Positions 23,443 to 45,576 of a stretch of 45,576 bases of DNA are shown piece by piece. A program made the position numbers and the translations under genes. Source of the stretch: Pirellulaceae bacterium (GTDB taxonomy: Bacteria; Planctomycetota; Planctomycetia; Pirellulales; Pirellulaceae); NCBI GenBank assembly GCA_020852965.1, contig JADYZV010000090.1, positions 1-45,576 on the forward strand. Direction: 5' to 3'. Under the pieces are notes generated by a model. It did not search any database, had not been told where the DNA came from, and was given only the letters and a program-made list of their open reading frames with translations. How positions within the stretch are numbered: position 1 is the stretch's first letter; each line of letters begins with the position of its first letter.

Positions 23443-26400
23443 TCAATAGCCTCTTGGACGAAGCGACTGCACATCTCGGCGTGGGCGAGCCCAAGTTTCC
23501 CGCACCGCTTGACTCACCAGCTCCAAGACGGCGCGGTAGTCGGCGTCGTCTTTGTCGACGTAGACGTCCGGACCACAACTCTCGCGGCCACCATCTGACT
23601 CCGCCAGTGGCGCGGTAAGAAACTGACTCTGGTCCGCGTGGTGAATGTCAATCCAATCCAACCGAGTAACCTCATCCGGCTGGTGACACGCCCCACAGCG
23701 CCTCGCGTGAATATCCAAGAGCGACTGATGCAATACGCTGTCAGATGCTAGATCATAGGCCTCCGATTCCGCACGCTTGTTCACAAAGCGATCATGGTAA
23801 GGTGCGTTCGCATCGATCCACATCACCAAACGCAATTTTTCCTCGGCATTTAGCGAAACCGCGTCACGATGGTTCTCATCCGCAATCGCTTGGATGACTC
23901 GACTGCGATGTGAACCGTAGGCAAGCGGCGGAGTGATGCTGGCGTCCTGAGCGCGAGCCGGCGAACTGGCAATCAACCCTTCCGTCATGAGCGTGGCATA
24001 CGCACGGTTATAGCCATAGTCGGGCACCCCATCATCGAGCGAAGTCAACCCGCCAGAGAAATCGAGCCCTTGAGCCGGCTTCAGCCCGCTATGACAGTCG
24101 AGACAGTGCTTGTCGAATACCGGCTGCACGTCACGCAAAAAGCTGATCGGACGATCGCCCCAAGGGGGTGGGATCATGGTAGCAGGCTCGCTCGGCAGTG
24201 AATAGGAGCTCGGTAGGTTTCCTGTATAGGAGGTCAATCCGCGAGTTTCATGGCAGCCGACGCAGGCTCGCCTCTCACCCGGTCGAAAGCTGATGAACGA
24301 TCGCATGCGTTGCAATTCCATGCGATCCTTGTCCAACAACTGGAAATAGACGGCCGTGTCGGCCGGAACGCGGAACTCCACGCTACCATCAGACGACACC
24401 GGGACGTCCCCCAGGATTCGAATCGGCGTCCAACTTTCATCAGGAATTTTCTTTTCACTACTTTGCTTCACGAACGAGTGATCTTCCACGTAGCGATGGC
24501 CACCATACTTGTTGTCGTAAGGCCAACCGAGCGGCTCGGCGATCCGCAAGAACTTCACTTGTTCAGGCTGAACCTGGTCACTGCCAAATGTAATATCGCT
24601 GACTACGCACGTGGCATAGTCGACCGACCGATCTATCGTATCAGACAATATGGGCGGCCGCGGGCGGCTGCGAAGTGGAATCGGTGTAAAGCAGGAGATG
24701 GTCGGGTCTTTATAAATCAGCTCTTTGTTACCGAAAACATCGACCAGGTAGAGGGCGTAGCCGGTGGCATCCACTTCTGAGCCCAATTTGCCGAGAGGTC
24801 GGTTGCCGTACGCATAGGAAACAAGGAAGTACTTTTCCGATAGGGCCCATGGCGTAGAATAATAACCTCGGTGATCCACCACGCCCCCCTCAGGAACAGG
24901 CTTGCCAGCCATGCCACCTTCCGGAGGTTTGACTCCTGGCGTAACAATACCGATCCCCTCTGGCGTGTTGGGCCCCATTCGCGTATCGATGACGACCAGC
25001 GGACCTGCCGCCAATGTATGGTGCCCAGCGGCAATGGCCACCAGCTTGGAGCTACCTGGAATGGAGCGTGCATCTTCCAGTGCCCAGGGGTCAACGAGAT
25101 GCTGTTTGAACAGAGCATTTGCGCCGGTACCATCTGGGCGGATCGTCCACAATGACTGGATGTATGCCCAACTCCGCTCATGATATTCCCAATGCGTGTA
25201 CACAATGGACCCATCGTCCAACACATGAGGCAGATAGTCACCATCCTTGCTGACACTCAACCGCCTAATATTAGTGCCATCTGGACGCATCGCATACAGA
25301 TTACAACTGGTTTCATCCTTGTCGTATTCATTGCATTGCAGCGAAGTACCGCATCGTTCGGACACAAATATAATGTCGCCACTCGGCGCGTAGGAAGGAT
25401 CCAAATCGCTCCACTCGCCCCACGTAAGCTGACGCAAACGGCGACCATCGATGTCCATTTCAAATAGATGAATTGGCTCCTCTTGGCGTCGCAAATCGAA
25501 GTGTGTCCTGCGATCCAACCAACCCTTGGGTGGCTCGTGGCTCGCCGCGCGCGCGTAACCGAACACGACACGCTCACCGTCGAACCACAAATCCAATCCA
25601 TGCACGTGTCCGGGACCCAACGCACCGTCGAGTAGGTATCGTATCTGTTGGCCTGAACCGGCGGATGGAAACGGATTCTCCAGAATACAAATATCGCCAC
25701 CCGGACGTGAGACCCAAGGCATATGATTGAGACAGATGTCCGGATAGGTTTCTTGACAAAAACGTTTGACAAACAACAACTGCTGGAAATCCAATAGTGG
25801 ATTCGCAAAGGCCAATCGCCGCACGATCCAACGAGCACGAACGTATATACTGCGTTTCTGCTCCACAGACGAATCGGACGATAGGGCACGGCTTTCCGCT
25901 TCGACCACGTCCAACTCTCGTAGGCTCCCGGTCACATCAACACCCGCACGCCGCAAGTCAGCCGCCAGCTTTCGCCCGCGCTCGATGCAGGCATCTGTAG
26001 GAAACTCTACCACCCCGCTTGTACTGGCTGTCGACCAAGGGCTCAAACTGCATTGGTCGGCAGGTCGCCCCAAGGCGAGATTCTTCGCGTCGCTTTCCGG
26101 CCCATAGAGCTCGACTTCATCGAGATGAAAAAAGAGCGGATTCGAGCTGGGAACCTGAAGCCGTATGAATCGAGCTACAAACTCAGTCGGTTCGAACGTC
26201 AACTCCAAAGGTTGTGCGCCCTCGATTCCACCGAAGTGTTGGCCACGATTCTCATATCGTAGAGTCCAATGCTGGCCATCCTCCGATGAAAGAACCTGAA
26301 GATTGTCCGCGTTATGTAAACCAGGTCTATAGTCGAGCCGGTTGTAGACAACCACGCGCCGAATGGGCACTGCCTGCCCCAGGTCTACCTGCCACCACGG

Positions 26401-26679
26401 TTTCGTATCCAGCCCAGTGTGGAACCCGTACTTGCCATTTTTCACACCATCGCAACCACCGGCCGCATCCGTTTGGGTTGTAATCCCCCCCTGCAGCGCT
26501 TGCAGCCAATCCTCCTCGATCATCTGGGACATCTGCTGCTCCGGAACGACTTCGTCGCGAGGTTGTGAAGCAGTTGGGGGAGCAGGCAACGGCTGGCGTG
26601 CGTACAGGCTGGGCAATCCCAACGAGATTAAGCAGAACAAACAGAGACCGGCTCTCTTGGCTACAACGATCGGGTTCAT
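23443..26679 (-). CDS. HZS-alpha-like triheme protein with discoidin module (protein A)
   Basis: 1078 residues from the ATG at 26679 (GGAG 9-10 bases before it), rather than 26754, and with a signal peptide (LCLFCLISLGLPSLYA). About 55-195 is an F5/8 type C (discoidin) domain: KPWWQVDLGQAVPIRRVVVY, VARFIRLQVPSSNPLFFHLD. A helical linker ends in LAFANPLLDFQQLLFVKR and SRPGGDICIL. A propeller with repeats such as PIHLFEMDIDGRRLRQLTWG, YTHWEYHERSWAYIQSLWTI and GHHTLAAGPLVVID resembles the middle domain of the hydrazine synthase alpha subunit. Three c-type haem motifs follow: CVGCH 806-810, CLDCH 859-863 and CGACH 995-999. Probable role: extracellular or periplasmic electron transfer or oxidation on a carbohydrate. 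Next to it are the PVC-cytochrome/ThuA pair. Confidence 0.88.
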   Translation of the reverse strand: MNPIVVAKRAGLCLFCLISLGLPSLYARQPLPAPPTASQPRDEVVPEQQMSQMIEEDWLQALQGGITTQTDAAGGCDGVKNGKYGFHTGLDTKPWWQVDLGQAVPIRRVVVYNRLDYRPGLHNADNLQVLSSEDGQHWTLRYENRGQHFGGIEGAQPLELTFEPTEFVARFIRLQVPSSNPLFFHLDEVELYGPESDAKNLALGRPADQCSLSPWSTASTSGVVEFPTDACIERGRKLAADLRRAGVDVTGSLRELDVVEAESRALSSDSSVEQKRSIYVRARWIVRRLAFANPLLDFQQLLFVKRFCQETYPDICLNHMPWVSRPGGDICILENPFPSAGSGQQIRYLLDGALGPGHVHGLDLWFDGERVVFGYARAASHEPPKGWLDRRTHFDLRRQEEPIHLFEMDIDGRRLRQLTWGEWSDLDPSYAPSGDIIFVSERCGTSLQCNEYDKDETSCNLYAMRPDGTNIRRLSVSKDGDYLPHVLDDGSIVYTHWEYHERSWAYIQSLWTIRPDGTGANALFKQHLVDPWALEDARSIPGSSKLVAIAAGHHTLAAGPLVVIDTRMGPNTPEGIGIVTPGVKPPEGGMAGKPVPEGGVVDHRGYYSTPWALSEKYFLVSYAYGNRPLGKLGSEVDATGYALYLVDVFGNKELIYKDPTISCFTPIPLRSRPRPPILSDTIDRSVDYATCVVSDITFGSDQVQPEQVKFLRIAEPLGWPYDNKYGGHRYVEDHSFVKQSSEKKIPDESWTPIRILGDVPVSSDGSVEFRVPADTAVYFQLLDKDRMELQRMRSFISFRPGERRACVGCHETRGLTSYTGNLPSSYSLPSEPATMIPPPWGDRPISFLRDVQPVFDKHCLDCHSGLKPAQGLDFSGGLTSLDDGVPDYGYNRAYATLMTEGLIASSPARAQDASITPPLAYGSHRSRVIQAIADENHRDAVSLNAEEKLRLVMWIDANAPYHDRFVNKRAESEAYDLASDSVLHQSLLDIHARRCGACHQPDEVTRLDWIDIHHADQSQFLTAPLAESDGGRESCGPDVYVDKDDADYRAVLELVSQAVRETWARPRRDVQSLRPRGY

Positions 26680-26779
26680 GGGCTCATCTCCGAGGAGTGA
26701 ATAATGGCAGACGTGTAAACGCGGCAGGGTCCAAGCTGGAGATTCAATTAACAAATCGCCTAATCAACCAAATCGGCTC

Positions 26780-26813
26780 CTGACCCCGTTTTTTCGCTGA
26801 CCCCGTTTTTTCG
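26780..26813. repeat. Perfect 17-bp tandem duplication
   Basis: CTGACCCCGTTTTTTCG occurs at 26780-26796 and again, identically, at 26797-26813, followed by T7 ahead of the stop codon of the next gene. On the minus strand it reads as two GGGGTCAG words after A-runs. It lies between the PVC-cytochrome gene and protein A. It resembles REP-like words mobilised by Y1 transposases, although this is from memory. Confidence 0.85.
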
Positions 26814-26818
26814 TTTTT

Positions 26819-29809
26819 TTAGCGTAGCGTGGTGAGGTAGGCGACCAGATCGAGTAACTCCGGCTCGGACATGGTCAAGTCGAGCGATTCGGGCATGAGC
26901 GAGCGATTCAACTGTCGTCGCTGTTCGACGTTCTTTAAGTCGACTCGATCTGTCGAGCCTGCGGTCGAGGTAATGACCAGTTCGTCTCCGTCGCGAGCAA
27001 CTCCGCCCCGAAGCGTGCGCCCATCCTGCGTGACGATCAGCTCCTGCATGAAACCGGTCTTGATCGTTTTGCTGGGATACAAGATTGAGTCGATCAGATA
27101 GTCGACCGTGTTTGTGGCAGCCACTCCATCGAGAGGCGGGCCGCTGAATTCTGCTGGCCCACCAGAGCGATGACAACGCGAACAGACTTGACTACGAAAC
27201 ACGAGCCGCCCCAGCAGCGGGTCGCCCTGCTGTTGCCGCTCCAGCAATCGAGCTCGCAAGCCTTCTTTTTGCTGCACCGCAGCGGGATCGTTTTCCCGAG
27301 CATCGAGCTGAACCAGAATTGCCTGAGAGCCGGTTGAGATTTCCACAAACTGCTCGCGGGTTTTTAACGCGGCATGAAACTCTACGCCCCGAGCGGTGAG
27401 CCGCGACTCAAATCTCTCCAACAATTCGGTGACGGCAGTTTGGTCAACGTGATTTCGCAAACAACGCAAAGCGACCAGAGCGACTTCCCGCGTTGGCGAT
27501 TCGAGCAGTTCTTGCCATGCTCGGCTTCCGAGCTGTTTTTCAATCTGCGAAAGGCTAACGATCGTTTCGAGCCGCTGCTCCAGCGGCGCGGCACTGTCTC
27601 CGACCACTTGCCAACACAGTTCAATGCAGACCGAATTGCCGACACCGAGGGTCGTGAGCGTGTGGTGCGTCTCGGCGCGGACTTCCGTGTCCTCGTCTCG
27701 TAAGAGGCGGCCGAGAAGTATGAACATATCGGGCTGTAGTTGGTCCTGCGCCAGGATCGCCAAGGTGCCGAGCTTATCGCCACGCGAGTGGAGCGGTGCC
27801 TCGTCGCTGGCCACTCGGTGCCAGAAGCGGTCGAGTGCGCCACCCCACGTGCCGCGTGTGGGCGACAGCTTCAGACGACCAAGAACGGCGACGCCGCGAA
27901 TCGTTTCCTGTACCGACAGATCGCGTTTCAATGCCGAGATGATTGGTTGTTCGAAGGCCGAGTGAGGCCAACGTTCCGCCAAGGCGAACAATTCAACCAG
28001 TGGCACATTGCCCGGTTGTAAAATCAAGGCGATAAGCGCCGCGCGGGCGGCTTCTCCACGCACCCCTTCGTGGAAGGCCTCGTCCACTGCGATCAGACCG
28101 GCTTGGCGGACGTCAGCATCGGCATCGGTCACGAGATTTTCAAAGTCGGCTTGCTCTCCCAGTCTCGCAACTTCGAGCGCGGCTCGGTAGCGGAGCCACG
28201 GCGACTTGGCCGCTCCTGCTCGGAGCGACCTGACCACGGCACGTACTCGGTCAGCGCGTTGGGGCAGCCCTATCGCCGCTTCCAATTGAACCGCCGGATC
28301 GGGATCACCGACGAGATTCTCCAGTGCCACGGAGCGCACATCCTGCTCGCGCAACAGTTGAATCGCCAATCGCCGCACGCGCCAGTCCGCATGTTGCAAA
28401 CCTCGCTCCATGATCGGCGCAGCGCTGGGCCAAGTGCTTTGTCGGAGCGTCCAAAGCGACTCGGCTGCGGTCAAGGCGTCTGGCTGGGTGAGCTGTTGGA
28501 CGAGTTTCTCTGCGGCGGCTGGTCCCTCCGCTATCAAGGCTTCCCTGGTTCGTTGGCGCGTCCGATGATGTCGGCTGGCCAGACCAGTATTGGCTGCCAT
28601 CTCATCCGTGGGCCGCTGTGACGCTCCCTCTTGGCCGACGTACGTGATCTTGTACAAGCGGCCGGTGAGATCGTTCTCGTCATCCATGCCGTACCAGTCG
28701 AGCAGGTACAGGTTGCCATCGGGTGCCATGGCAATCTGTGTGGGCCGGAAACGTGGGTCGCTGGTCGTGAGAAACGGTTCAGTCTTGATGAGTTCTCCGC
28801 GCTCGTCGATGATGTGTCGCAGGATAACGTGATTGGCTGACGGGAAGCCGTGAACGCCCCAATTGGCCACGAGCAAGTTGCCCCAATACTCGTGTGGAAA
28901 GGCCGACGAGTAATAGGCCAACACTGCCGTGTGCGCCCCAGGCGGATTCTCCCACACGGGTGGAGCCAGCGGATGCTTCCCAGCCAGCCACGGCCAATCG
29001 ACCGCACGTGTCTGAAAATGATAGTCGCCGCCAACGATCGCATGGATCAAGCGGTTGGGGTTCCCCTCGCCGTTGGACAACACCCACAGTTCACCAAACG
29101 GGTCGATGTCGAACGAAAACGGTGCTCGCATTCCTTGCACGAGCAACTCGATGTTGGAACCATCCGGCTTGAAGCGAAAGACCGCCCCCGTATTGCCGCG
29201 CACGGCGACCTCGTTGTTGGGCCCGGACAATTTTGTGGGATGATCACCTACGCAAAGATAGACCAGTCCATCCGGTCCGAATGCCACACGATACATGCCA
29301 AATGGATTCCACGGAGTTTCGGCATCTTGCACGATGGTCTGCCGCTCACCCGCCTGGCCATTCTCGTCCAGCTCTGCGGTGAACACTTGATTGAGATTCG
29401 TTGCCCACAGCCGACTTCCGCGAACCGCCAGACCCATCACGGGGTCAGCAAAGCCGGTCGCCACTTCGGAACTCCGCGCGACATGACCATCTTCATTCAA
29501 CTCAAGCCGGACAATCGGGTTCGTTGGCGACTCGGTGGGAGCCCCTTCGAGTCCGTATCGATAAGTGTGTGCCAGGCTGACGTAGATGCGGCCCGCTTCA
29601 TCCACGGCCATCGTCATCGGGTTGACCAAGTCGGGTTCAGCCGCGAGGAGCTGGATCTCAAAACCCTCGGGAAGGCTGAACGTGGCGAGCGCTTCGGTTG
29701 GCGATAGCACGGGATGAAGCTCTGGTGCCGACGGCGGTGCAGCATCGCTGGCGATGCAAAGGCTCGCTGAGATTGCGACAAGGAAGCTCCACAGCCGAGC
29801 GATCATCAC
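26819..29809 (-). CDS. PVC-type membrane-bound dehydrogenase: propeller, HEAT repeats, cytochrome c
   Basis: 996 residues with a signal peptide (LWSFLVAISASLCIA). About 35-400 is a sorbosone/glucose-dehydrogenase-like propeller (FSLPEGFEIQLLAAEPDLVN, MTMAVDEAGRIYV, NPFGMYRVAFGPDGLVYLCV, GLVYLCVGDHPTK). About 430-800 are HEAT-like helical repeats (DWRVRRLAIQLLREQDVRSV, VQLEAAIGLPQ). The C-terminus is a single c-type cytochrome domain with CSRCH at 876-880, followed by the family's VDYLIDSILYPSKTIKTGFM and ESLDLTMSEPELLDLVAYL. This is the PVC-specific haem protein architecture. Its start overlaps the ThuA stop (TGATG), so both are probably made from one message. Likely a periplasmic sugar or polyol oxidase donating electrons to the haem. 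Confidence 0.93.
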   Translation of the reverse strand: MMIARLWSFLVAISASLCIASDAAPPSAPELHPVLSPTEALATFSLPEGFEIQLLAAEPDLVNPMTMAVDEAGRIYVSLAHTYRYGLEGAPTESPTNPIVRLELNEDGHVARSSEVATGFADPVMGLAVRGSRLWATNLNQVFTAELDENGQAGERQTIVQDAETPWNPFGMYRVAFGPDGLVYLCVGDHPTKLSGPNNEVAVRGNTGAVFRFKPDGSNIELLVQGMRAPFSFDIDPFGELWVLSNGEGNPNRLIHAIVGGDYHFQTRAVDWPWLAGKHPLAPPVWENPPGAHTAVLAYYSSAFPHEYWGNLLVANWGVHGFPSANHVILRHIIDERGELIKTEPFLTTSDPRFRPTQIAMAPDGNLYLLDWYGMDDENDLTGRLYKITYVGQEGASQRPTDEMAANTGLASRHHRTRQRTREALIAEGPAAAEKLVQQLTQPDALTAAESLWTLRQSTWPSAAPIMERGLQHADWRVRRLAIQLLREQDVRSVALENLVGDPDPAVQLEAAIGLPQRADRVRAVVRSLRAGAAKSPWLRYRAALEVARLGEQADFENLVTDADADVRQAGLIAVDEAFHEGVRGEAARAALIALILQPGNVPLVELFALAERWPHSAFEQPIISALKRDLSVQETIRGVAVLGRLKLSPTRGTWGGALDRFWHRVASDEAPLHSRGDKLGTLAILAQDQLQPDMFILLGRLLRDEDTEVRAETHHTLTTLGVGNSVCIELCWQVVGDSAAPLEQRLETIVSLSQIEKQLGSRAWQELLESPTREVALVALRCLRNHVDQTAVTELLERFESRLTARGVEFHAALKTREQFVEISTGSQAILVQLDARENDPAAVQQKEGLRARLLERQQQGDPLLGRLVFRSQVCSRCHRSGGPAEFSGPPLDGVAATNTVDYLIDSILYPSKTIKTGFMQELIVTQDGRTLRGGVARDGDELVITSTAGSTDRVDLKNVEQRRQLNRSLMPESLDLTMSEPELLDLVAYLTTLR

Positions 29810-30564
29810 CGTGGCTCCTGTGGGGACTTCCCAGTTAACAGGGACCGATCATTGGCTGCCCAAGCGCACCCGCGCCGAATCAATTCGGCTGTACCAGGCG
29901 ATCGAATCGCGCGGTCGTCATGGCCCAACGACGTGTGAAAAACGCGTCCCTTGCCATACTGAAACGCAAACGCCATGGGATGGTCCCTGCCGGTTACCTT
30001 CGATCGAGCGAAAGCCAGCAACTCTACGGACCGCTCGCCCACCAAGCCAATGTACAGTTCGTCATCCGTCTGAAAGTCGCTCATTCCGCGAGTGATGGGA
30101 TGTTCGTCCTTGGTGATCTCGACCGTGAATGGCCCTCGCGGATCGTGGGTGTTTTCGCCGTCCCACACCCTGCCCACCAGATTGCGATACTCGGGCCAAT
30201 CCCCCAACGCACCGCAAGCAAAATGCATCGCGACCAGCCCTCCGCCACGTTCGGCAAACTCGGTCAAATTGGCTTGTACCTGCTGCTGCTCAGCGAGCGG
30301 TTTGTCGTTTCGAAAATGCAGAAACACGACATCGATGTCAAAGAGCTCAGGAGACGCCAGGAGATTTGGATCCTTGACGACTCGCACAGCGAACTGTTCG
30401 TCTTTCTCCAACAGTTCACAAATCGTTGGTGTGGTTTTGGTCCAATCATGAGACGGGTGATCGACCCCTGTGACCAGCAGCACCTGGATCGGCTTCTTAT
30501 CGTCGCTCAGCGCCACAGCGGCCATGGCTGTGACAGCAACCAGAGTCATTACAAAGAATCGCAT
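29806..30564 (-). CDS. ThuA domain protein
   Basis: 252 residues with a signal peptide (VMTLVAVTAMAAVALS). The class-I glutamine amidotransferase-like fold of ThuA proteins is visible: IQVLLVTGVDHPSHDWTKTT, FDIDVVFLHFRN, GGGLVAMHFACGALGDWPEY, VWDGENTHDPRGPFTVEI, and PMAFAFQYGKGRVFHTSLGH. ThuA is linked to metabolism of 3-keto-sugars from trehalose and related disaccharides; the reaction catalysed by exported versions is unknown. GGAG lies about 8 bases before the ATG. It overlaps and precedes the PVC cytochrome gene, a pairing seen often in planctomycetes. Confidence 0.92.
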   Translation of the reverse strand: MRFFVMTLVAVTAMAAVALSDDKKPIQVLLVTGVDHPSHDWTKTTPTICELLEKDEQFAVRVVKDPNLLASPELFDIDVVFLHFRNDKPLAEQQQVQANLTEFAERGGGLVAMHFACGALGDWPEYRNLVGRVWDGENTHDPRGPFTVEITKDEHPITRGMSDFQTDDELYIGLVGERSVELLAFARSKVTGRDHPMAFAFQYGKGRVFHTSLGHDDRAIRSPGTAELIRRGCAWAANDRSLLTGKSPQEPR

Positions 30565-31444: not shown

Positions 31445-34400
31445 TCACGGATCGGTATCCGAGGAGTTCTCGGATAGCGATTGTCGAGGCGGCTCGCCGC
31501 TGCCTCGCGCGATAATCGACTCTCGAACCGAGAGCAGATCGGCACGCGGGAGTTCGTGTAACTGATCCATCAACGAGGAAAGCGTGGCGAGGAGTCTCTC
31601 GTAGTCCGGATCGCTTTGATCCGCAAACACGCTTGGCTGACAACGCTGCCAGCCGCCGGCGGCACGAGCCAACGGTGCTTGCAACATGCGGCTCTGCCGC
31701 ACATCGTGCTGGTTGAGGCTCCGCCACCAGTTGCTGAAGCGACCACCGTCATCGCCGCTGTGACACGTGGCGCAACGGCGGGAGTAAACGTCGTGCAACT
31801 CTTTCTCAACCGCCCCTGTGAAAATATCGCGATTCGGGTAATAGGTTTCGTAACGGTCATAGTAGACGCCATTCGTGTCGATCCATGTTGTCAGCCGCTG
31901 CCATTGATCGTCGGTCAAGCTCACTCCTTGATGGCCGGCTGCTAAGAGCTTCACCAACGGCGAGGCATGCGAACCATACGTGTACGCGGGACGCGGATAG
32001 ACATCCTCCGGATGGTCCCAACGCATGGCGTTGGCAACACTCAGATAGGGCAGTAGTTCCTCGTAGGCCACCGTGAACTGGTCGGTCAGCTCATCGGTGA
32101 GCAGGAGGCGGCATTGCGAGCGGTTCTGGTCATGGCAATGCGCACACTTCTCCGAGATCAGGGGTTGCACATCGCGAAGGAAACTCACGGCAACCGTGCC
32201 CCAAGGGGGCGGCACTAGTCGATCGGGCGGACGGAGCGACGCCAACGATACTCCGTTGGGGGGCGATTGCGTTTGCGGCTCGTGGCAACCGACGCACGTG
32301 CGGCTCTCGCCGGGTTTCAAACAGACCACGCTGCGCATCCGTTGGATCTCGCGGCGGGCCTCGTCCAATACTTGAAAGTAAACATTCCGGTTGGCGGGCA
32401 CCGAGAAATGGACCGATCCGTCCGACTCGATCGGGACCGTCCCCCAAACTCGTTTGACCGTGTAGATCTGAGTGCCGGAAGTACAGATCACGCCGCCCGT
32501 GGGGACCGCTGTGCGAGGAACATCTTCGAGTACCCGCAAGTACCGCGCTGTGCCGCGCGGCGTGTCGGGCAAGCCACGGTAAACGTCCAACACTAGCAGG
32601 GAGGCGTCAGCCTGATCGGAGTCCGAATTCAGCCGAGTCGGAGAGAGCACGTCCGGCGTCGCACGCGACACCAGTGGTATCGGTTCCGCACAGGAGATGT
32701 TCGCATCGCGATAGACCAGCCCCAGGTTGTCGTGCCGATCACCGATATACAACGCCCAGCTCTGTTCGAGCCAGGGCTGGACCGTCGGTGTGAACGAGCA
32801 AAGGTAGGTTGTCTCGGACAGCGGCCAGGGTTCACTGTACCAACCGTGGCGGCTGTCCTCGATCTTCTCGCCGGTCACGGGAACGCCGGGAGTCAACACG
32901 GTGACCGGTTCCGGGCCGTCCACACCGCGCCCCACATCGATGGTGCCGATCGGTCCGTGCGTCTGGCCATGATGCCCCGTGAACAGCGCCATGACCTTGT
33001 GACTGCCCGGCACGGCGCGCGGAAACATGATCACGTTCGGGCGGATCGTCGCATTTCCATAGAAAGGTGCTGCATGCGATCCGTCTGGGTGAATCGTGAA
33101 CAAGTCGTGGAGCGATGTGACGCTGCGTTCGTTGTACTCCCAGCGATTGTAAATGATCCGCCCGTCGCTAAGCACGCTGGGATTGAATTCATTGAAGACG
33201 TTGAAGCCCAGTTGCTGGACTGCGGAACCATCGGCGTTCATCGTGTGCAGGCTGGCCACGTGGATGTCGCTGCCACACATCACCACCTGCTCGGGGCGAT
33301 CGGACGTAAACCCAATTTGTCCGTTGGGCAGGTAGAACGGCTCGCAGTCGTTGGCAGGGCTGGCTGTCACTTGGCGCAGTTTCGTGCCATCGATGGCGAT
33401 TTCGTAAATGTTATAGTTCTCATCGCCAATCACCTCGTCCAAGGGCTGGTCGGGCAGGGGACGTGGTCGGTCCGAGCCGTTGCCGAAAGCAAACAGCAGT
33501 CGCTCGCCCCCCCAATCGAGACAGACATCGCGATAGATTCCAGTCCCCAGCGAGTCGACAACCGTCGTGACGGCTCCTGCGGGTCCGACAGGCGACAGGC
33601 TATAGATGCCACCGCCCGGACGGTTATAACAGTGATGGCCATCCATGAAAGGCTGTTCGGAGATGTAGGGTTTTCGCTTGACGAATAGCAGCCGCTCGAA
33701 ATCGATTTGATCGAGCAACAGGCGATCGCGCAGGGAGCTGGCGGCGAGGAACAGTTCCGACCAACGCTCGCCAACCGTCGCCGCAGTGTCGCTGAGAAGC
33801 CCGTTCATGCGGAGCCGCAACTCCGCCAGTTGGAGCGCCCCCTGCGCATCAGGCGTATCGGACAGAATCTGTTCGACACTGTGCAACACGGCAGGCACGT
33901 CTTCGACATGCGTCAGCAAACCGAACCAATACGTCTGCGATTCCGTTGCGATGTCGATCAACATCAACCCACCACCGGGACGAGACAGCTCAAATGCCAG
34001 CGCTAGGCTCTTACGCTCGCCGCCATTGAGTTCGATCAGTTGGTCTTCCAGAAGCTGTCGTTGAATTCGATCGCCTCGTCGCCAGCTCGGCTGGGCGGAA
34101 CTTCCCTCGGTGCTTCCCTCGGAGCTCGGACACCGCTGGTGGAAGTGGCAGCGGAGCTTGAGCTTCACGGGTGATTCGGTGGCGTTGCTGTAAACCACCG
34201 TCAGCAAATTCTTCCCCAGTCGAGGATTCCAGCGCTCAGCTAGTTCTAGCGAAAACGGCGCTGGCTGAGGACGCAGCTCCATCAACGAATCGAAACGTCG
34301 ATCGTAGCGGTGATACCATTGACTCTCTCCTCCTCCGCCTGGGTGCCGATCGCCGCGCACGGTCTCGCCCACCTGGACGTGTCGCTCGTTCGATTCGTTC

Positions 34401-34738: not shown

Positions 34739-35247
34739 TGGGCAAACGATTCCCATTGCGACACTTGAGCCAAACTATGGTATTCCGATCGTGTTTCCTT
34801 GCATTATGGAGCCAACGGATGGAAAAAGCAACCCGAGCGCTGGCCTTCCTGGCGATATCGAAGCCACAGGGGTCAGGCGAATAAGAAACACCTGCACTTT
34901 GCACTTGCATCAGTGTCGACCTGATAAACTCTGGAGTGCGGGGATTCATCACCGCTTTGGCCCTCCCCCAAGCCCACACCAACCAGAACTATCGCGTCAC
35001 CAATGCGGATTGACCTGAGACCTGAGACCTGAGACCTGAGACCTGAGACCTGAGACTTGAGACTTGAGACTTGAGGCTTGAGGCTTGAGGCTTGAGGCTT
35101 GAGGCTTGAGGCTTGAGGCTTAAGATGATTGGTATAGACGGTGGAATGCATAAAGAGCCAAGCACTAAGCCAGCTCTGTCACTCTTCCCGTATTTCAAAA
35201 CCGCCACTCAGCGTCACCGTCGTCGGACTGCGCCGGCCTAACAGGAA
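34739..35247. other. Intergenic region upstream of protein B, repeat-bearing
   Basis: No credible gene is seen. It contains the heptamer array at 35012-35123 and otherwise unique sequence. The frames across the array (runs of SSLKPQA on the minus strand) are repeat artefacts. Confidence 0.5.
35012..35123. repeat. Heptanucleotide tandem array, 16 units
   Basis: Six GACCTGA units, three GACTTGA, six GGCTTGA and one GGCTTAA follow each other without gaps. The three variants occur in ordered blocks rather than mixed, which points to stepwise slippage expansion after two separate point changes. There are no spacers, so it is not CRISPR-like. No reading frame with protein character crosses it. Confidence 0.95.
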
Positions 35248-38363: not shown

Positions 38364-38496
38364 GGAGGTGGATCGCTTGCCAGGGATGGCCTGAAACACT
38401 ATAACCACACTTGAGTTTCGAGTATATTAATGTAGCCGCTTCGGTGACAACGCGGCCCGTCGGTCAGGCAACACACCCCATCGAGGAGATTCCACA

Positions 38497-40446
38497 ATGA
38501 ATCGAACCGCGCAAAGCATCATGTTACTAGTGAGTGTGTTGGCAGCTTTGTTGGGGGCCTGGTTGACGCCGCGCGATGAGCTGCTCGCGCAGGATGTGGC
38601 CATCTCGGAATCGCCGGCCGCCTCTGCCTATAGATCGCCATTTGCGGTGGTCACGTCACCCGATGGGAAAACGATCTATGCCACCGATCAAACCGGCGGG
38701 CGCCTATCGATTCTCGATGTTGCAAGCATGACAGCCTGCGGCGAGATCGAATTGCATGGCCGACCGCAAGGTTTGGCTCTGTCGAACGACGGGAGTACGC
38801 TGTACGTCGCCGAGCATGGAGCCAGTAGCGTGGCCGTCATCGACACGAACAAACAAACGATCACTTCGCGAATTGCCGTCGGACTGTGGCCGACTGCGGT
38901 GGCGCTCGGCGAACAATCACGACGACTGTACGTCGCCAACCAAGATCGCGATTCGATTTCAGTAATCGACTTGCGCCAGCATCCCGCAAAAACGATCACG
39001 GAAATTGCGGTGGTTCGCGAACCGAGCAGCCTGGCGCTCACGCCAGACGAGAGGCATATCGTCGTGACCAACTTGATGGCCCTGGGGCGTGGCACCGACC
39101 CAACATTGTCGGCAGTGGTGAGCATCATCGACACAGGCACGCTGGCAGCGGCGAGAAGCGTGAAGCTACCTCCGGGATCTACGATGGTCCCGGGTGTGGC
39201 TGTCAGCCCGGACGGGAAGTGGGCTTATGTGGTGCATGGGCTGGGGCGGTTCAATCTGCCCATCACGCAACTCGAACGCGGTTGGGTGAATACCAATGCC
39301 TTAAGTATCATCGACATCGCCGGTGGTTCACGACTGGCCACGCTGCTGCTCGACGATTTGATGCAGGGTGCGGCAGATCCACACAGTTTGGTCGTCTCCC
39401 AGGACGGCAAGCATCTGTGGATTACTCACACCGGCGTCCACGAGGTCTCTTCCATCGATATTGGTTTGGTGCATGAACTTCTGGAAGGCAACGTGCCCGA
39501 CGATTTGGCGTCGCTCAAGGACGGCTCGCAAGCCAATATCTGGAACCAGGTAAAGCACAACCGAGAGAAGATTGCGGACCTCGAAAACGATTTGACCGGG
39601 CTGTACATCGCTGGAGTGATTCATCGCTTTCGCGCCGGTGGCACCGGACCGCGCGGGCTGGCGCTTTCCTCCGATGGCCAAGCGCTGTTTGTAGCCAACT
39701 ATTTCTCCGGTTCCGTCACGGTGCTCGACGCTTCGACGGGCAGCCTGCAAGGGAGTATCTCGCTGGGAGCGGCACCGGACCCCGACTCGGTGCGGCGTGG
39801 AGCAACCATCTTCCACGACGCGACGCACGCCTTTCAACGGTGGCACAGTTGTGCTTCGTGTCACGCCAATGAAGGCCGCATTGACGGCTTGCGCTGGGAT
39901 TTCCTGGGGGATGGCATCGGCAATCCCAAGGATACACTCAGCCTACTCCATTTCGACCAGACCGAACCGATGAACCGCCGCGCGACGATGCAGTCGTCGC
40001 GCGCTTGTACGAAGAACGGCTTGGAATCGACGAACATGATCGTGCCGACCGAGAAGGACGTGGACGACTTGTATGCGTATCTGATCTCGTTGCGCCCCGT
40101 CCCCAGCCCACACCTCACGCCCGATGGCAAGTTGACCGAGTCCGCCGAGCGCGGGAAGTCGTTGTTCGAGGGCAAGGCGAGCTGTGTGCGCTGCCATCCC
40201 GCACCGTACTTCACCGACAAGCAAATGCACAACGTCGGCGTGCTGAGTCCGAACGAACCAGACGGTCGTTACGACACACCTTCGCTGTTGGAGTCGTACC
40301 GCACCGCTCCGTATCTCCACGATGGGCGCGCGCTGACTCTGAAGGAAATTTTCACGGCGAACAATGAAGCGAAGAGACACGGTGACGCCAGTTCGCTCAC
40401 CGAGCAAGAGGTCGACGACCTAGTCGCTTACCTGCTTTCCCTGTAG
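38497..40446 (+). CDS. YncE-like propeller fused to a diheme cytochrome c peroxidase-like domain
   Basis: 649 residues, GAGGAG 8 bases before the ATG, and a signal peptide (IMLLVSVLAALLGAWLTP). About 45-430 is a seven-blade propeller of the YncE type (SPDGKTIYATDQTGGRLSIL, LSNDGSTLYVAEHGASSVAV, QSRRLYVANQDRDSISVID, SSDGQALFVANYFSGSVTVL). The C-terminal third has two c-type haem motifs, CASCH 452-456 and CVRCH 563-567, in the pattern of the MauG/cytochrome c peroxidase family (RRGATIFHDATH, RWHSCASCHANEGRIDG, SAERGKSLFEGKASCVRCHP, YDTPSLLESYRTAPYLHDGR). It probably acts in the periplasm as a peroxidase or a protein-modifying oxidase. The HZS-alpha-like gene begins 44 bp later, so co-transcription is likely. 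Confidence 0.92.
   Translation: MNRTAQSIMLLVSVLAALLGAWLTPRDELLAQDVAISESPAASAYRSPFAVVTSPDGKTIYATDQTGGRLSILDVASMTACGEIELHGRPQGLALSNDGSTLYVAEHGASSVAVIDTNKQTITSRIAVGLWPTAVALGEQSRRLYVANQDRDSISVIDLRQHPAKTITEIAVVREPSSLALTPDERHIVVTNLMALGRGTDPTLSAVVSIIDTGTLAAARSVKLPPGSTMVPGVAVSPDGKWAYVVHGLGRFNLPITQLERGWVNTNALSIIDIAGGSRLATLLLDDLMQGAADPHSLVVSQDGKHLWITHTGVHEVSSIDIGLVHELLEGNVPDDLASLKDGSQANIWNQVKHNREKIADLENDLTGLYIAGVIHRFRAGGTGPRGLALSSDGQALFVANYFSGSVTVLDASTGSLQGSISLGAAPDPDSVRRGATIFHDATHAFQRWHSCASCHANEGRIDGLRWDFLGDGIGNPKDTLSLLHFDQTEPMNRRATMQSSRACTKNGLESTNMIVPTEKDVDDLYAYLISLRPVPSPHLTPDGKLTESAERGKSLFEGKASCVRCHPAPYFTDKQMHNVGVLSPNEPDGRYDTPSLLESYRTAPYLHDGRALTLKEIFTANNEAKRHGDASSLTEQEVDDLVAYLLSL
39979..40003. repeat. 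Perfect 10-bp inverted repeat inside a coding region
   Basis: CGCGCGACGA and TCGTCGCGCG surround a 5-base loop (TGCAG) in the peroxidase-like domain. The very GC-rich stem would be stable in RNA. It may be incidental to coding. Confidence 0.8.
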
Positions 40447-40490
40447 TGGATTCTGAGTTGCAACGTACCAACGCATAGAATTTCGATGCC

Positions 40491-42941
40491 ATGACAAACC
40501 GCATCTCGTCTCGATGGTTGAAGTTGTTGGGTTCCTCGCTGACTCTGCTGGTCTTCGCGGCGGCGCACTCGTTGGTGCATGCCGCCGAAGTCCCGCAACA
40601 CCCTCCCGGCGAACTGCTTTCTTCGATGCTCCAGGGGCCGCTCGATGGCTTCGAGGAAATCGTGTTCGCGACCCGTGTTTCGGGCCGCGATCACTGGTAT
40701 GTCAGCTTTGGGTATTACAGTTGCGACTACGGCGAAGGAGCTGAGAAGAGCTTCGGCAAGTATCCCGATGGTGAGACCCTGCGGGGCTACGGAGACGGCG
40801 GCCGCTTGTGCCGCCTGAATCTCCGCACGGGAGAACTAAAACTGCTGATCGATGATCCACAAGGTGGTGTCCGAGATCCTCAGATGCATTACGACGGCCA
40901 AAAGATCCTCTTCTCGTATCGTCGCGGAGGAACGCCGACGTACCATCTCTACGAGATCAATATCGACGGCACTGATTTGATTCAATTGACCGATGGTCCC
41001 GATGATGACATCGAACCGACGTATCTGCCCGATGGTGGGATCATGTTCGGCTCCAGCCGCTGCAGGCGTTTTGTTAACTGCTGGTTCAGCCGCGTGGCCA
41101 CGCTACACCGCTGCGATGCAGACGGCAGCAACATCCGGATGGTTTCGAGCAACAACGATCACGACAACACGCCCTGGGTGCTGCCAGATGGTCGCGTATT
41201 GTATATGCGATGGGAGTATGTCGATCGCAGTCAGGTTCATTTCCATCATCTGTGGACCGTCAATCCGGACGGAACGGGCCAGATGACTTGGTACGGAAAT
41301 GAGTTTGCCGGCACCGCCATGCTGGATGCTAAACCAATACCTGGCACCAAAAAAGTTGTGGCGTCGTTTTCGCCTGGGCATGGTGCCCCCGAACACATGG
41401 GACACATTACGGTTGTCGATCCGAGTGCTGGGCCAGACGTCTTGCCGGTCACTAAGCAGATCAGTCAAGGCAACCAGATGTTTCGCGATCCGTATGCGAT
41501 CAACGAAGACTGCTTCCTGGCAGCCGATCCGAAAGGTGTTTTCGTTATCGATGGCGCTGGCAATAAGGAGCTGGTCTACGCTCTGCCGGAAGCCTTGCGG
41601 CACATGGAATGCCACGAACCTCGTCCGCTCCAGGCGCGGCCGCGCGAGCCGATAATCGGTTCCAAAACCGAGCTATCCAAGGAGACGGGCGAGTTGGTGC
41701 TGGCTGACATCTATAACGGTCGCAACATGGAAGGAATCCAACGTGGCGAAATCAAGAAGTTGCTGGTGCTCGAACAATTGCCCGAGCCGGTACACTTCTC
41801 GGGCGGCATGGAACCATTGAGCATTGGTGGCACGTTCACGATGTCGCGGGTGCTGGGAACCATTCCGGTCGAACCCGACGGCTCAGCCTACATGGAGCTG
41901 CCGGCAATGCGATCGTTGTTCCTGGTCGCATTGGACAAGGACGATCTGTCCGTCAAGCGGATGCAGAGCTTCGTCACCCTTCAGCCTGGCGAACGAACCA
42001 GTTGCGTTGGCTGCCACGAACAGCGCTCGCGCACCGCTCCCGTCGACTCACATTTAATGGCGCTAGCCCACTCGCCCCACAAGCTGACGCCCATCGATGA
42101 TGTTCCCTCGGTGCTGGACTTTCCTCGCGACATTCAGCCTATATTGGACAAGCACTGTGTCGAATGCCACAATCCGGATCGTCGTGACGCGGGCGTGGAT
42201 CTCAGCGGCGACCACACTCCTAAATATACGAATAGCTACTGGACCATAGTCCGCCGCGGTCTGGTAGCCGATGGACGCAACCAGCCATATTCCAACCGCG
42301 CGCCGCGCTCGATCGGCAGCGCGGCCAGCCTGCTCATGCGGCTGACCGATGGTAGCCATCAATCTGCCAAGCTAAGCGAACTGGAACGAAAGACTATCCG
42401 GCTGTGGATCGACACGAGCGCCACCTACCCTGGTACTTACGCCGCGCTCGGCTGTGGCATGTACCCTGCTGCGCTCCCCAACGACGTGCTGGCAAGCCGG
42501 TGCGGAACATGCCATGACGGCCAAAGCCGAGAGGGACGAGTGGCACGCAAGTTCGACTTTAGCTCGCTGCAGTCAATGTGTAATCTCTCTCGGCCCGAGA
42601 AGTCCGACCTGCTTCGCGCACCGTTGTCCAAGGAGGCCGGTGGACTCGCCCTGTGCGGCAACGAGGTCTTCCAGGACACGACCGACCTGGGCTACCAGGC
42701 ACTTCTCGCCGCGATCCGCACCTCCGCAAATCAATTGGCCACGCAAAAGCGATTCGATATGCCAGGCTTCCGGCCCAACAAGCATTACATCCGCGAGATG
42801 AAGCGGTTTGGCATCCTGCCAGCGGACTTGGGAGCAGATGATCCGATCGATATCTACGACACCGACGAGCGTTATTGGCGATCGTTCTGGTATGTGGACC
42901 AGTCAAGGCAACTTCTCCCCGACCAGGTGATGAATCGGTGA
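40491..42941 (+). CDS. Compact HZS-alpha-like triheme protein (protein C)
   Basis: 816 residues with a signal peptide (LLGSSLTLLVFAAAHSLVHA). Unlike proteins A and B it has no extra N-terminal module and no LLFVKR linker: the propeller starts almost directly (FEEIVFATRVSGRDHWYVS, GVRDPQMHYDGQKILFSYRR, YHLYEINIDGTDLIQLTDGP, YMRWEYVDRSQVHFHHLWTV). Three c-haem motifs follow: CVGCH 505-509, CVECH 556-560 and CGTCH 671-675. This size and order match the hydrazine synthase alpha subunit best, but the beta and gamma subunits are not seen. It probably forms an operon with the YncE-peroxidase gene 44 bp upstream, which could be its redox partner. Confidence 0.88.
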   Translation: MTNRISSRWLKLLGSSLTLLVFAAAHSLVHAAEVPQHPPGELLSSMLQGPLDGFEEIVFATRVSGRDHWYVSFGYYSCDYGEGAEKSFGKYPDGETLRGYGDGGRLCRLNLRTGELKLLIDDPQGGVRDPQMHYDGQKILFSYRRGGTPTYHLYEINIDGTDLIQLTDGPDDDIEPTYLPDGGIMFGSSRCRRFVNCWFSRVATLHRCDADGSNIRMVSSNNDHDNTPWVLPDGRVLYMRWEYVDRSQVHFHHLWTVNPDGTGQMTWYGNEFAGTAMLDAKPIPGTKKVVASFSPGHGAPEHMGHITVVDPSAGPDVLPVTKQISQGNQMFRDPYAINEDCFLAADPKGVFVIDGAGNKELVYALPEALRHMECHEPRPLQARPREPIIGSKTELSKETGELVLADIYNGRNMEGIQRGEIKKLLVLEQLPEPVHFSGGMEPLSIGGTFTMSRVLGTIPVEPDGSAYMELPAMRSLFLVALDKDDLSVKRMQSFVTLQPGERTSCVGCHEQRSRTAPVDSHLMALAHSPHKLTPIDDVPSVLDFPRDIQPILDKHCVECHNPDRRDAGVDLSGDHTPKYTNSYWTIVRRGLVADGRNQPYSNRAPRSIGSAASLLMRLTDGSHQSAKLSELERKTIRLWIDTSATYPGTYAALGCGMYPAALPNDVLASRCGTCHDGQSREGRVARKFDFSSLQSMCNLSRPEKSDLLRAPLSKEAGGLALCGNEVFQDTTDLGYQALLAAIRTSANQLATQKRFDMPGFRPNKHYIREMKRFGILPADLGADDPIDIYDTDERYWRSFWYVDQSRQLLPDQVMNR

Positions 42942-43258: not shown

Positions 43259-45576
43259 ATGGAAGCGCGCTACACTCTGAAACTGTGTCTCGTTTTGGCG
43301 TGCTTCCTTTCAGCGGTTGTTACGGGCGCTCGTGGTTCGTTTTCCGACGAACCCGAAAACGAAGTGGCTCTCTTCTCGCATTGGGAGTTTGACGAGGAGG
43401 GTGACGCACTGGTGGTCCGCGACTCGTCGGAATTCGCCAGCGCGGACATCACGCTGCCAAATCGCTTGACGAGGACGAGAGGCGTCCACGGTGCGGCTCT
43501 CGACCTTGTCGGCGAAAACAAACTGGCTTGTAAGTTCGCCTCCGACGCCACGCAGCTATCCGGGATCACCATAGCCGCGTGGGCGCGACCGACCGATCTG
43601 CGTGGTTACCGCGAGATCTTTCGCCAAGAGTGCGACGAGCGACTGCTGTTCTCGTACCAGAGTGACGGCTGCGTACTGTCGCTCGGCTTGAACATCGGCG
43701 GCTATGTCGAATGCGATGCTCGCATTGAACCGGACCAACTCATGGACGGAGCGTGGCATCACTGCGCCGCGACGTTCGATGGTCAAGCAATGCGAGTCTA
43801 TCTGGATGGCAAGGAAATCGGTTCTTTGCTGCGACCAGGCCAGATCGCCCTGCGGACTTCTGTACCTGCTTTCATCGGTTCCAGCAGCGGGCAGGGCGAG
43901 TTCTTTCAAGGTGGGCTCGACGATCTACGCATCTATGCGAAGGCCCTAACGCCGGAACAGATCTCGCGTCTCTATCGCAACGGCATCGAGTCGCTGGTGA
44001 GCTACGCGAAACAGTTCGATGCCGAACTCGGCACGCTGTACGCGCCAGGCAGCTCCTTTGCCGAGACGCTCGCCGGCACCTGCAAGAATCTCGCGGAGCG
44101 AGACCTGCAAACGGATCGCGACCTGGTGAGTGCTCTGCTCGTTCGGCTCAAGTCAACCTATCCTGCAGACTACGAAGCGTTTCTCTCTTGGACTGGCACC
44201 AGCCCCGTCGAGTATCTGGCTGCCGATGGTAACGTCAATCTCCAAAGTATGGCCCGATTGCTCGAGCTGCTCGTCGAGTACAAACCACTCACCGAGCGAC
44301 AATGCGAATTCCAAACTTCGGAACAACTCAGCAAGTGGAACGAAGTCGAAGATATTCTAAAACGATTTGAACGGCTCAAGAAGCTCGGCGATTCGGCCCG
44401 CTTCTCGCCTGAGTGGATCGAGATCATGTTGGCGGCCGAGCGACACATCCAATTGCGTCCGTCCGTCGACGAAGCAGTCGCTCCCTACGTCACACCGCAA
44501 ACGCCGCCGACGAAGAATCTCTCCGCCGAGGAGGCCCAAGGCGCCTTACACCGCGACTGGTTGCACCAAGCCGATCAAGATCCGTCGCCCGACAGGATCG
44601 AGCAAGAAATCCAGTGGGCGCGCGAGCTTGCCGAGCGAATCGTGTCCAGTTCTTCCGGCAAGGCTGATCTCGCCTGCGAGATCTCCGAACTCGACGCGTT
44701 GTCGAAACAGGTCGCCGCGTTGACCGCACCGGACGCTGAGCTGTATTTCAAGGTCCGAGCGGTCAAACGCACGATTGCATTCAAGAACCCAGTTGTCGAT
44801 TTCAGTAAGGTTTTGTTCGTCGATATGCCATTCCCGCAGGGGAATGAATGGCCTCATGAGACGCGACACCGCTTGGGATATATGGCCGTGCCTGGTGCTA
44901 GGCTGCTCGTCCTGGATGGACTCACGCCTGCCGGCACGTTGACGAAGCTCATGCCGAATGCGCCGCTACACGGTTCCTTTTGGCGGCCCGATCTCTCGTA
45001 CGATGCTCAGAAAGTTCTATTCTGCTTCAAGCCGCACAACGAAAAATCGTTCCATCTGTACGAGATCAACATCGATGGTTCTGGGCTCGTCCAATTGACC
45101 GACGGACCATACGACGATCTCGATCCGATCTATTTGCCGGACGGCGAGCATATTCTCTTCTCGACTTCGCGCGGACACACCTATGTCCGTTGCATGCCAC
45201 CGACGAACGCTTACGTGCTGGCTCGCTGTAACAGCGATGGCAAGGACGTCTACCTGATTTCGCGGAACAACGAACCGGACTACCTGCCGTCGGTGATGAA
45301 CGATGGCCGTGTAGTTTACACGCGTTGGGAGTACACGGACAAACCTCTGTGGCGCGCCCAAAGCCTCTGGACGACTCACCCAGACGGCACGCAGGTCGCC
45401 ACGTTGTGGGGCAATCAAAGCGTCTGGCCTGATCTGCTCAAGGATGCTCGGAGCATTCCCGGTAGCCGGCGAGTGATGTTCACCGGCAGCGCCCATCACA
45501 ACTGGTTTAGCGGATCGGTTGGCATAATCGATCCCGAGAAGGGGCTTAACTTTCCCAACGGCTTGACGAAAGTTAC
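43259..45576 (+). CDS. HZS-alpha-like protein with LamG module (protein D), 3' end outside window
   Basis: The frame is open from ATG 43259 to the window edge (772 codons visible). GAAGTGAG lies about 8 bases before the ATG. A signal peptide (LCLVLACFLSAVVTGARG) is followed at about 40-240 by a LamG/concanavalin-like domain (SGITIAAWARPTDLRGYREI, DGAWHHCAATFDGQAMRVYL, FFQGGLDDLRIYAKALTPEQ). About 250-560 is helical. Near 515-530 the motif IAFKNPVVDFSKVLFVDM corresponds to the LAFANPLLDFQQLLFVKR linker of protein A. The propeller begins about 575 (FHLYEINIDGSGLVQLTDGP, YTRWEYTDKPLWRAQSLWTT, SIPGSRRVMFTGSAHHNWFS). The haem motifs should lie beyond the edge. Confidence 0.88.
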   Translation, partial: MEARYTLKLCLVLACFLSAVVTGARGSFSDEPENEVALFSHWEFDEEGDALVVRDSSEFASADITLPNRLTRTRGVHGAALDLVGENKLACKFASDATQLSGITIAAWARPTDLRGYREIFRQECDERLLFSYQSDGCVLSLGLNIGGYVECDARIEPDQLMDGAWHHCAATFDGQAMRVYLDGKEIGSLLRPGQIALRTSVPAFIGSSSGQGEFFQGGLDDLRIYAKALTPEQISRLYRNGIESLVSYAKQFDAELGTLYAPGSSFAETLAGTCKNLAERDLQTDRDLVSALLVRLKSTYPADYEAFLSWTGTSPVEYLAADGNVNLQSMARLLELLVEYKPLTERQCEFQTSEQLSKWNEVEDILKRFERLKKLGDSARFSPEWIEIMLAAERHIQLRPSVDEAVAPYVTPQTPPTKNLSAEEAQGALHRDWLHQADQDPSPDRIEQEIQWARELAERIVSSSSGKADLACEISELDALSKQVAALTAPDAELYFKVRAVKRTIAFKNPVVDFSKVLFVDMPFPQGNEWPHETRHRLGYMAVPGARLLVLDGLTPAGTLTKLMPNAPLHGSFWRPDLSYDAQKVLFCFKPHNEKSFHLYEINIDGSGLVQLTDGPYDDLDPIYLPDGEHILFSTSRGHTYVRCMPPTNAYVLARCNSDGKDVYLISRNNEPDYLPSVMNDGRVVYTRWEYTDKPLWRAQSLWTTHPDGTQVATLWGNQSVWPDLLKDARSIPGSRRVMFTGSAHHNWFSGSVGIIDPEKGLNFPNGLTKV

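Follow-up and report, generated by a model that had tools for sequence, protein, structure and literature searches.

What do relatives of hydrazine synthase (HZS), an enzyme whose origin is an open question, do outside anammox bacteria? The question is raised by contig C90 of a Pirellulaceae genome (GenBank assembly GCA_020852965.1, contig JADYZV010000090.1), which encodes four proteins resembling the alpha subunit of HZS, here called A to D, and a fused homologue of its beta and gamma subunits, beta-gamma-1. The window analyzed here is this entire contig (45,576 bases), and its source genome, G000, comprises 8.37 Mb in 199 contigs. An earlier note on the window, made from the sequence alone, had described A to D as one redox core carrying different terminal modules, and had conjectured a system for oxidative glycan attack or electron delivery. 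Our preferred reading, to which we assign a probability of about 0.42, is that A to D are modular, glycan-associated, exported, HZS-like multihaem c-type oxidoreductases of the HZS-alpha superfamily that take electrons from saccharides. The features concerned are as follows.

23443-26754, minus strand: protein A, HZS-alpha-like, 1103 amino acids (aa), with a TolB-like propeller, PF18582 and three c-haem motifs; in-frame ATG at 26679
26140-26451, minus strand: F5/8 type C (discoidin) module of A, residues 102-205 (Pfam, 6.4e-11)
23683-24264, minus strand: stretch of A holding its three CxxCH motifs (residues 831, 884 and 1020; motif scan)
31445-34756, minus strand: protein B, HZS-alpha-like, 1103 aa, three c-haem motifs
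33617-34654, minus strand: N-terminal region of B without Pfam match, 39-41% identity in two orthologues
38497-40446, plus strand: beta-gamma-1, a YVTN propeller fused to a di-haem MauG/cytochrome c peroxidase (CCP)-like domain, homologue of the HZS beta-gamma fusion
40491-42941, plus strand: protein C, bare HZS-alpha-like, 816 aa, three c-haem motifs
41745-42020, plus strand: HZS-alpha middle domain (PF18582) of C
43259-45576 (contig end), plus strand: N-terminal part of protein D, 772 aa, the rest probably on contig C148
43544-43966, plus strand: LamG (Laminin_G_3) module of D, residues 96-236 (Pfam, 1.6e-26)

A shared haem core with exchangeable modules

A search for PF18582, as the earlier note had proposed, matched A (1.4e-23), B (6.8e-23) and C (3e-19), all over the cut-off, along with the frame that would continue D on C148 (6.4e-23), which carries two CxxCH motifs, not three. 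The three c-haem motifs reported for each of A, B and C were found as well, at residues 821, 871 and 995 of B and 505, 556 and 671 of C (those of A are listed above), and none of 2000 residue-shuffled versions of each protein contained three or more. The two propeller words said to be common to A to D recur in close form in all four, but the exact patterns only in some: EI.IDG..L.QLT is exact in C and D, with EMDIDG in A and a final QVT in B, and W.Y...S......LWTI.PDG is exact only in A, with close variants in B, C and D. With the TolB model TIGR02800 (cut-off 343 bits) the alpha-like proteins reached only 20-38 bits. From N-terminal hydrophobic stretches alone, we infer that A to D are exported.

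The terminal regions differ as first described, with a discoidin module in A, a LamG module in D, no extra module found by Pfam in C, and an N-terminus in B that matches no Pfam family at E ≤ 0.001. A wider module census covered 43 proteins at E ≤ 0.001, namely 42 of 61 distinct non-anammox alpha-like open reading frames (ORFs), taken from longer stretches, and the N-terminal part of D; some of its module matches fall below Pfam's curated cut-off. PF18582 was present in 42 of the 43, the exception being D's N-terminal half, and the modules comprised F5/8C (7 proteins), FGE-like (5), HEAT (4), and NPCBM, LamG, CBM6 and rhamnosidase-N (rhamnosid_N; 2 each). Orthologues in genomes of other genera retain 53-66% identical cores while their modules differ: the G021 orthologue of A has no discoidin match (core 53% identical), the G032 orthologue of D no LamG match (58% over 252 residues), and the G021 orthologue of B an extra C-terminal NPCBM module (core 66% identical). 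These comparisons bear out the view of one redox core with different terminal modules. Substrate-binding modules of carbohydrate-active enzymes show a like exchange, and this resemblance is the strongest support for the idea put forward in the earlier note.

Protein C and its beta-gamma partner

Structure models were built for C and beta-gamma-1. The model of C, from 41 aligned sequences (pLDDT 84.0, pTM 0.82), had HZS-alpha as its top match in the PDB (5c2v_A, E 9.5e-32, 777 columns, TM 0.58/0.62, rmsd 5.5), so that for C, alone of the four proteins, the suggested comparison with Kuenenia HZS-alpha returned a match along its length: propeller, middle domain and second-haem region all have counterparts.

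The beta-gamma-1 gene ends 44 bp upstream of C and had gone unmentioned in the earlier note. Its product matches the NCBIfam family hydrazine_BC (NF052342) at 6.4e-56, and, in the PDB, a profile of 20 of its relatives matched both HZS beta (5c2v_B, 3.9e-51) and HZS gamma (5c2v_C, 2.7e-39), well ahead of the top-scoring di-haem peroxidase (3o5c, 8e-13). Because an S-layer propeller (1l0q, 9e-65) outscores beta in this search, the specificity of the match rests on beta and gamma jointly. The beta-gamma-1 model (pLDDT 75.6) likewise had 5c2v_B as its top Foldseek match (TM 0.88 by target). A second fusion gene, beta-gamma-2, lies at 22372-24246 of C148 and precedes another bare alpha, protein E (C148 19434-22415). 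Beta and gamma are thus represented by homologues that are fused, as in Scalindua according to the available text of PMC12758564.

Proteins resembling C ("C-type") were collected by scanning GTDB species genomes and taking the best 80 of 375 relatives (52-89% identity); among the taxa in their record titles are Planctomycetota, Verrucomicrobia, Lentisphaerae, Acidobacteria, Hydrogenedentota and Chthonomonadales. A beta-gamma-like gene is present on 18 of these 80 loci and lies within 500 bp of the C-type ORF, on the same strand, in 16 of the 75 loci that have a plus-strand C-type ORF (5 of the 80 do not). The C-type tree has members linked to beta-gamma on either side. A beta-gamma partner acting in trans where none is adjacent was also considered: 21 of 22 C-type genomes have a match (E ≤ 1e-15), a weak result, as generic propellers and proteins resembling MauG are matched by this model too. 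Among six relatives searched for beta-gamma-like genes, all five genes whose best segment scores over 100 bits adjoin an alpha-like gene, an FG-GAP gene intervening in two cases (G021 and G023), and five weaker genes (56-84 bits) have no alpha-like gene within the fetched 9-16 kb surroundings, one of these (G021 C285) having a PF18582 gene about 20 kb away; further weak matches lie outside these counts.

Two C-type loci carry unexpected labels. L115, from a metagenome-assembled genome (MAG) named Candidatus Anammoximicrobium, holds a C-type alpha and no beta-gamma gene on the fetched stretch; the name hints at anammox, yet C-type proteins are without HZS features. L117, on a contig labelled Gammaproteobacteria, encodes a C-type alpha 64% identical to C of the window and is possibly a mis-binned planctomycete contig.

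Glycan-type setting and proposed function

Around the alphas of the cluster are genes for GH141-like, heparinase II/III-like, GFO/IDH/MocA, xylose-isomerase-like and ThuA proteins, for a 3-keto-disaccharide hydrolase with DUF7133 and a cytochrome, and for pectate-lyase-like, arabinofuranosidase-like, GxGYxYP and WbsX-like proteins. Several cytochromes of the Planctomycetes-Verrucomicrobia-Chlamydiae (PVC) type and of the dihaem type are also encoded. Neighbors within the window are listed below, those of the block at 12417-21192, identified by domain scans, without strand.

12417-14519: GH141-like/beta-helix protein
14709-15653: DUF6807 protein
15650-16957: GFO_IDH_MocA protein
17080-17922: xylose-isomerase-like protein
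17910-18962: aldo/keto reductase
19243-21192: heparinase II/III-like protein
26819-29809, minus strand: PVC-type cytochrome with DUF7133, HEAT and a CxxCH domain
29806-30564, minus strand: ThuA-domain protein (Pfam)

Among the best 80 of 375 C-type relatives, a GH10-like gene was present on 12 loci and within 1 kb of the alpha gene in 8 (L120:8242-9780, and also L121, L122, L124, L125, L130, L142 and L157). Seven of these eight are on the strand opposite to the alpha, all eight keep WDVVNEA and HFTE, and Pfam confirmed GH10 (the xylanase family) in 3 of 3 tested. Gene clusters whose tested representative was a GFO/IDH or a sulfatase occurred on 8 and 8 of the 80 loci; these, like the GH10 numbers, are raw counts.

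We propose that the core, a TolB-like propeller with one to three c-haem motifs (here two or three), would be loaded with haem and would most likely take electrons from (oligo)saccharide-type substrates, with swappable modules (discoidin, LamG, NPCBM, CBM6, rhamnosidase-N, HEAT, FGE-like) placing it on different glycans or surfaces. The electrons would then pass via the core haems to the PVC-type and dihaem cytochromes of the same cluster, presumably in the periplasm. The two bare alphas, C in the window and E on C148, may each join a beta-gamma fusion protein to form an alpha-beta-gamma complex of the HZS kind, the beta propeller of which would link a peroxidase-like haem in gamma to the alpha haem. 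More broadly, module exchange and gene setting suggest, without proof, that much of the HZS-alpha-like haem-protein family works on carbohydrates. The overall interpretation in the earlier note survives in part: the single core with varying modules, the partly carbohydrate setting, some GH10 neighbors and the HZS-alpha fold predicted for C stand, but the number of such proteins was underestimated, the beta-gamma partner was missed, and oxidative glycan attack or electron delivery stays a hypothesis.

Several observations weigh against saccharide oxidation. We know of no reaction for any non-anammox member of the family, and F5/8C and LamG modules bind proteins and lipids too. Many neighbors in the cluster are generic enzymes, and the view of a glycan-type setting comes from the cluster itself, not from a comparison with the rest of G000. 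PF18582 was found in 0 of 14 same-genus genomes, which can mean an old transfer or a loss, and the companion sulfite reductase gene of the E pair speaks against a glycan role there. GH10 as a constant partner was rejected for G000, where it had no match; since the fetched stretches of 68 of the 80 C-type loci also have none, the GH10 link is not universal.

Electron transfer as an alternative

The alternative that survives best is that the alphas have no catalytic site and act as targeted electron conduits, holding c-haems at polymers, minerals or partner dehydrogenases and moving electrons out of the periplasm. Haem I would suit such a role in that the Tyr591 insert of HZS is missing, as would the dihaem and PVC cytochromes of the cluster. 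Counting back 14 residues from the first CxxCH, a Met-x-Ser motif occurs in 43 of 61 non-anammox alphas and in all of 41 C-type proteins (as M491 and S493), and it could further make haem I a common His/Met haem of the electron-transfer kind. At this place, E and the anammox alphas compared carry Ala-Leu-Thr or a similar sequence, and haem I therefore probably differs from that of HZS. Against the conduit reading stand the polar and aromatic propeller residues H68, W69, Y70, H252, H253, H297 and H302, conserved without exception across 41 C-type proteins, and the pairing of some of these proteins with a MauG/CCP-like beta-gamma protein, and we consider this alternative unlikely.

Divergence from hydrazine synthase

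Nitrogen chemistry, in which an HZS-like complex would reduce nitric oxide to hydroxylamine or form N-N bonds as in anammox, is brought to mind by alpha and beta-gamma homologues lying side by side, and especially by E, the nearest HZS-alpha relative in G000, whose pair is placed alongside anammox HZS. A model of four anammox alphas gave 248 bits for E, 232 for its G017 orthologue, 130-212 for proteins resembling clade I of the published non-anammox pairs (see below), 61 for C, 44 for B and 41 for A. Alpha trees were computed from 86 rows under LG+F+G4 and from 69 rows under LG+C20 with posterior mean site frequencies (PMSF), the latter with anammox rows thinned to 9 of 26; one short fragment was omitted. 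In both, anammox alphas group with the clade-I-like proteins and E (support 97; 98/94), and C-type proteins and most modular alphas form a separate group (100/100 in the PMSF tree). The trees are unrooted, so that evolutionary direction is not readable from them, and the phylum-wide model scans scored two candidates per genome; the nearness of E to anammox rests on the four-alpha model and the PMSF tree. A glutamate synthase gene (Pfam) also adjoins the E-type pair in two genomes of different families (G777 C289, L207:3-3791; G754 C1326, L208:1-2736).

Against this stand the scores, all far below the NCBIfam cut-offs: 52 bits for A, 67 for B, 77 for C, 21 for the part of D and 289 for E with the HZS-alpha equivalog (cut-off 800, passed by 27 of 392 phylum genomes), and 190 and 237 for beta-gamma-1 and beta-gamma-2 with the fused beta-gamma model (cut-off 1250). 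So does the absence of residues with roles in HZS (roles as given in the available texts of PMC12758564 and PMC12607021). Of the aligned non-anammox alphas, nine (among them C and E) extend beyond the first CxxCH, and none of these has Tyr591 or its insert. The spacing of the first and second CxxCH is 102 residues in each of 26 anammox alphas, as opposed to 53 in A, 50 in B, 51 in C and 51 in D, and, among 55 non-anammox alphas with two motifs, to 49-55 in 50, 68-79 in four and 115 in one fragment. In the alignment, which did not take in A, B or D, neither C nor E has a residue corresponding to the distal His772. Gamma His144 is replaced by Arg in beta-gamma-1 and Trp in beta-gamma-2, and gamma Asp168 by Asn and Thr, respectively; the MauG/CCP tryptophan at the gamma-144 position is thus present in beta-gamma-2 and absent from beta-gamma-1. 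Gamma Cys165, which forms the third haem bond, is kept in both and counts for nitrogen chemistry; it is absent in two others, L172 and L175. The zinc ligand Cys303 is reported in PMC12758564 to be lacking in the homologues studied there and in Scalinduaceae.

Beyond these residues, the cluster proteins are unlike HZS in the third C-terminal haem motif of A, B, C and E, in their terminal modules and in their glycan-gene setting. Matches to PF13447, the family of hydroxylamine oxidoreductase and hydrazine dehydrogenase (HAO/HDH), number 0 in G000 and 0 in G017, compared with 12 and 14 in two anammox genomes used as positive control; G777, which holds both kinds of pair, has one, a point in favor of nitrogen chemistry. 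Judged by these sequence features, the cluster proteins are not hydrazine synthases, as was likewise concluded for clades I-III in the available text of Hagglund et al. 2025 (PMC12758564). True anammox potential was rejected for G000 on the missing Tyr591 insert, His772 and gamma residues and the lack of a PF13447 match, and nitrogen chemistry of any of these kinds appears distinctly unlikely.

Sulfite reductase neighbors of protein E

At least for the E pair, sulfur chemistry, that is sulfite oxidation or release coupled to assimilation, is a further candidate. A sulfite reductase gene of the assimilatory type (PRK13504, 543.9 bits, cut-off 457) directly precedes beta-gamma-2 and E in G000 (L054:9434-16229; C148:19434-26229), and the same three-gene order recurs in G017 (55/71/75% identity). 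In G777, E and its beta-gamma gene end contig C289, and contig C290 begins with a sulfite/nitrite reductase homologue divergent to a beta-gamma-1/C pair. The third haem region of E also resembles SorB, though weakly (1.5e-8, under the cut-off), a similarity that any small cytochrome c fold might produce. With the arrangement seen in two genomes, and in a third only across a contig break, and with no sulfite reductase beside A, B, C or D among the window proteins scanned, we regard a sulfur role as very unlikely.

We would attach a similarly low likelihood to a bolder scenario, in which alpha-beta-gamma is a general machine of PVC and neighboring bacteria for oxidative polysaccharide attack. 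Gamma would make a small reactive species at its peroxidase-like haem, beta would channel it, and the alpha haem would use it on a module-held polymer, the whole being a haem-based equivalent of lytic polysaccharide monooxygenases, and anammox HZS would be an offshoot that gained the Tyr591 insert (102 versus about 50 residues) and turned the species to nitrogen. Finally, a purely structural or binding role, with haems that have lost their importance, is hardly credible, for the single CxxCH of four HEAT-related members is outweighed by three CxxCH motifs invariant in 41 of 41 C-type proteins and by the near-constant motif spacing given above (50 of 55).

Relation to published families

Pairs of this general kind are already known: Hagglund et al. 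2025 describe non-anammox HZS-like alpha/beta-gamma pairs in clades I-IV, and Suarez et al. 2023 (PMC10732223) report hzs-like genes in Phycisphaerae. As far as the available texts go, these share with the present cluster a neighboring alpha and fused beta-gamma in non-anammox planctomycetes and the lack of key HZS residues, and differ in that no tandem expansion, glycan-type module exchange, GH10 neighbors or sulfite reductase-beta-gamma-alpha operon is described there. Gene context, as opposed to sequence comparison, would place C and beta-gamma-1 in clade IV as outlined in the available text, FG-GAP and ABC genes being absent and the order varying. Loci of the clade I type (alpha, FG-GAP, ten-CxxCH beta-gamma) occur in G021, G023, G530, G768 and G463. 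The PSCyt/PSD cytochromes with carbohydrate-binding modules (CBMs), for which the available text of He et al. 2017 (PMC5615132) proposes a role in carbohydrate metabolism, are similar as PVC c-haem proteins fused to LamG, NPCBM, CBM6, rhamnosid_N or F5/8C and encoded near sulfatase genes. Their core is a different one, however: that of the present proteins is HZS-alpha-like, and A to D match no PSCyt or PSD Pfam domain at E ≤ 0.001.

A literature search of titles and abstracts, with subscription papers mostly outside its coverage, returned nothing on glycan-type modules or glycan-gene clustering of HZS-alpha-like proteins, and the main text of a T. terrifontis xanthan transcriptome paper (PMC5673643), in its available part, names no hydrazine-synthase-like gene. 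Neither module swapping nor the glycan link was met in print in this search. If the wider family is indeed modular, redox-active and linked to glycans, this would give HZS relatives a concrete substrate class, place HZS among existing periplasmic haem proteins of which one branch carries an extra insert, and possibly add a further type of redox enzyme active on carbohydrates. The hypothesis can be tested in relatives by way of module swapping, GH10 neighbors and paired beta-gamma genes.

Extent of the cluster

The cluster extends beyond the window. The last 225 bases of C90 (45352-45576) match the first 225 of C148 (L034:1-225) end to start at 93.3% identity, with 15 mismatches; one amino-acid difference was seen across this overlap. 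The contigs are probably joined here, with D's remaining half at the start of C148, and the imperfect overlap suggests mixed strains in the assembly, strain variation being a likelier explanation than a close paralogue. The end of C148 in turn overlaps that of C111 by 127 bases without a mismatch, and across this overlap an alpha with an FGE-like C-terminus is followed by the next alpha, an order that is unbroken in MAG KLAP164 (L107; 88% and 87% identity). Together, this overlap, the KLAP164 order and the probable C90/C148 join therefore give a run of about 87 kb that takes in C90 from 23.4 kb onward, then C148, then C111 read in reverse between 203.6 and 168 kb. It contains two alpha/beta-gamma pairs. 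The "four" HZS-alpha-like proteins counted in the window were thus an undercount, with 11 PF18582 proteins on the linked contigs (D counted once) and two more on C119 and C23, or 13 in the genome.

Mis-binning or recent transfer of the cluster was also considered and rejected, as composition gives no sign of foreign DNA. GC content is 0.535-0.577 in the C90, C148 and C111 stretches and 0.541-0.571 in eight sampled contigs of the same genome, and mean tetranucleotide correlations are 0.39-0.53 versus 0.33-0.46, a weak test given that pieces of other genomes reach 0.43. The FabB-type gene of the cluster is itself an extra paralogue, about 37-41% identical to genus members. A second, very divergent locus lies on C23 (58148-67487; L056:1148-10487), where an alpha-like protein stands in a row with a YVTN/beta-like protein with three CxxCH motifs, an ApbE/FGE fusion and a protein with five CxxCH motifs.

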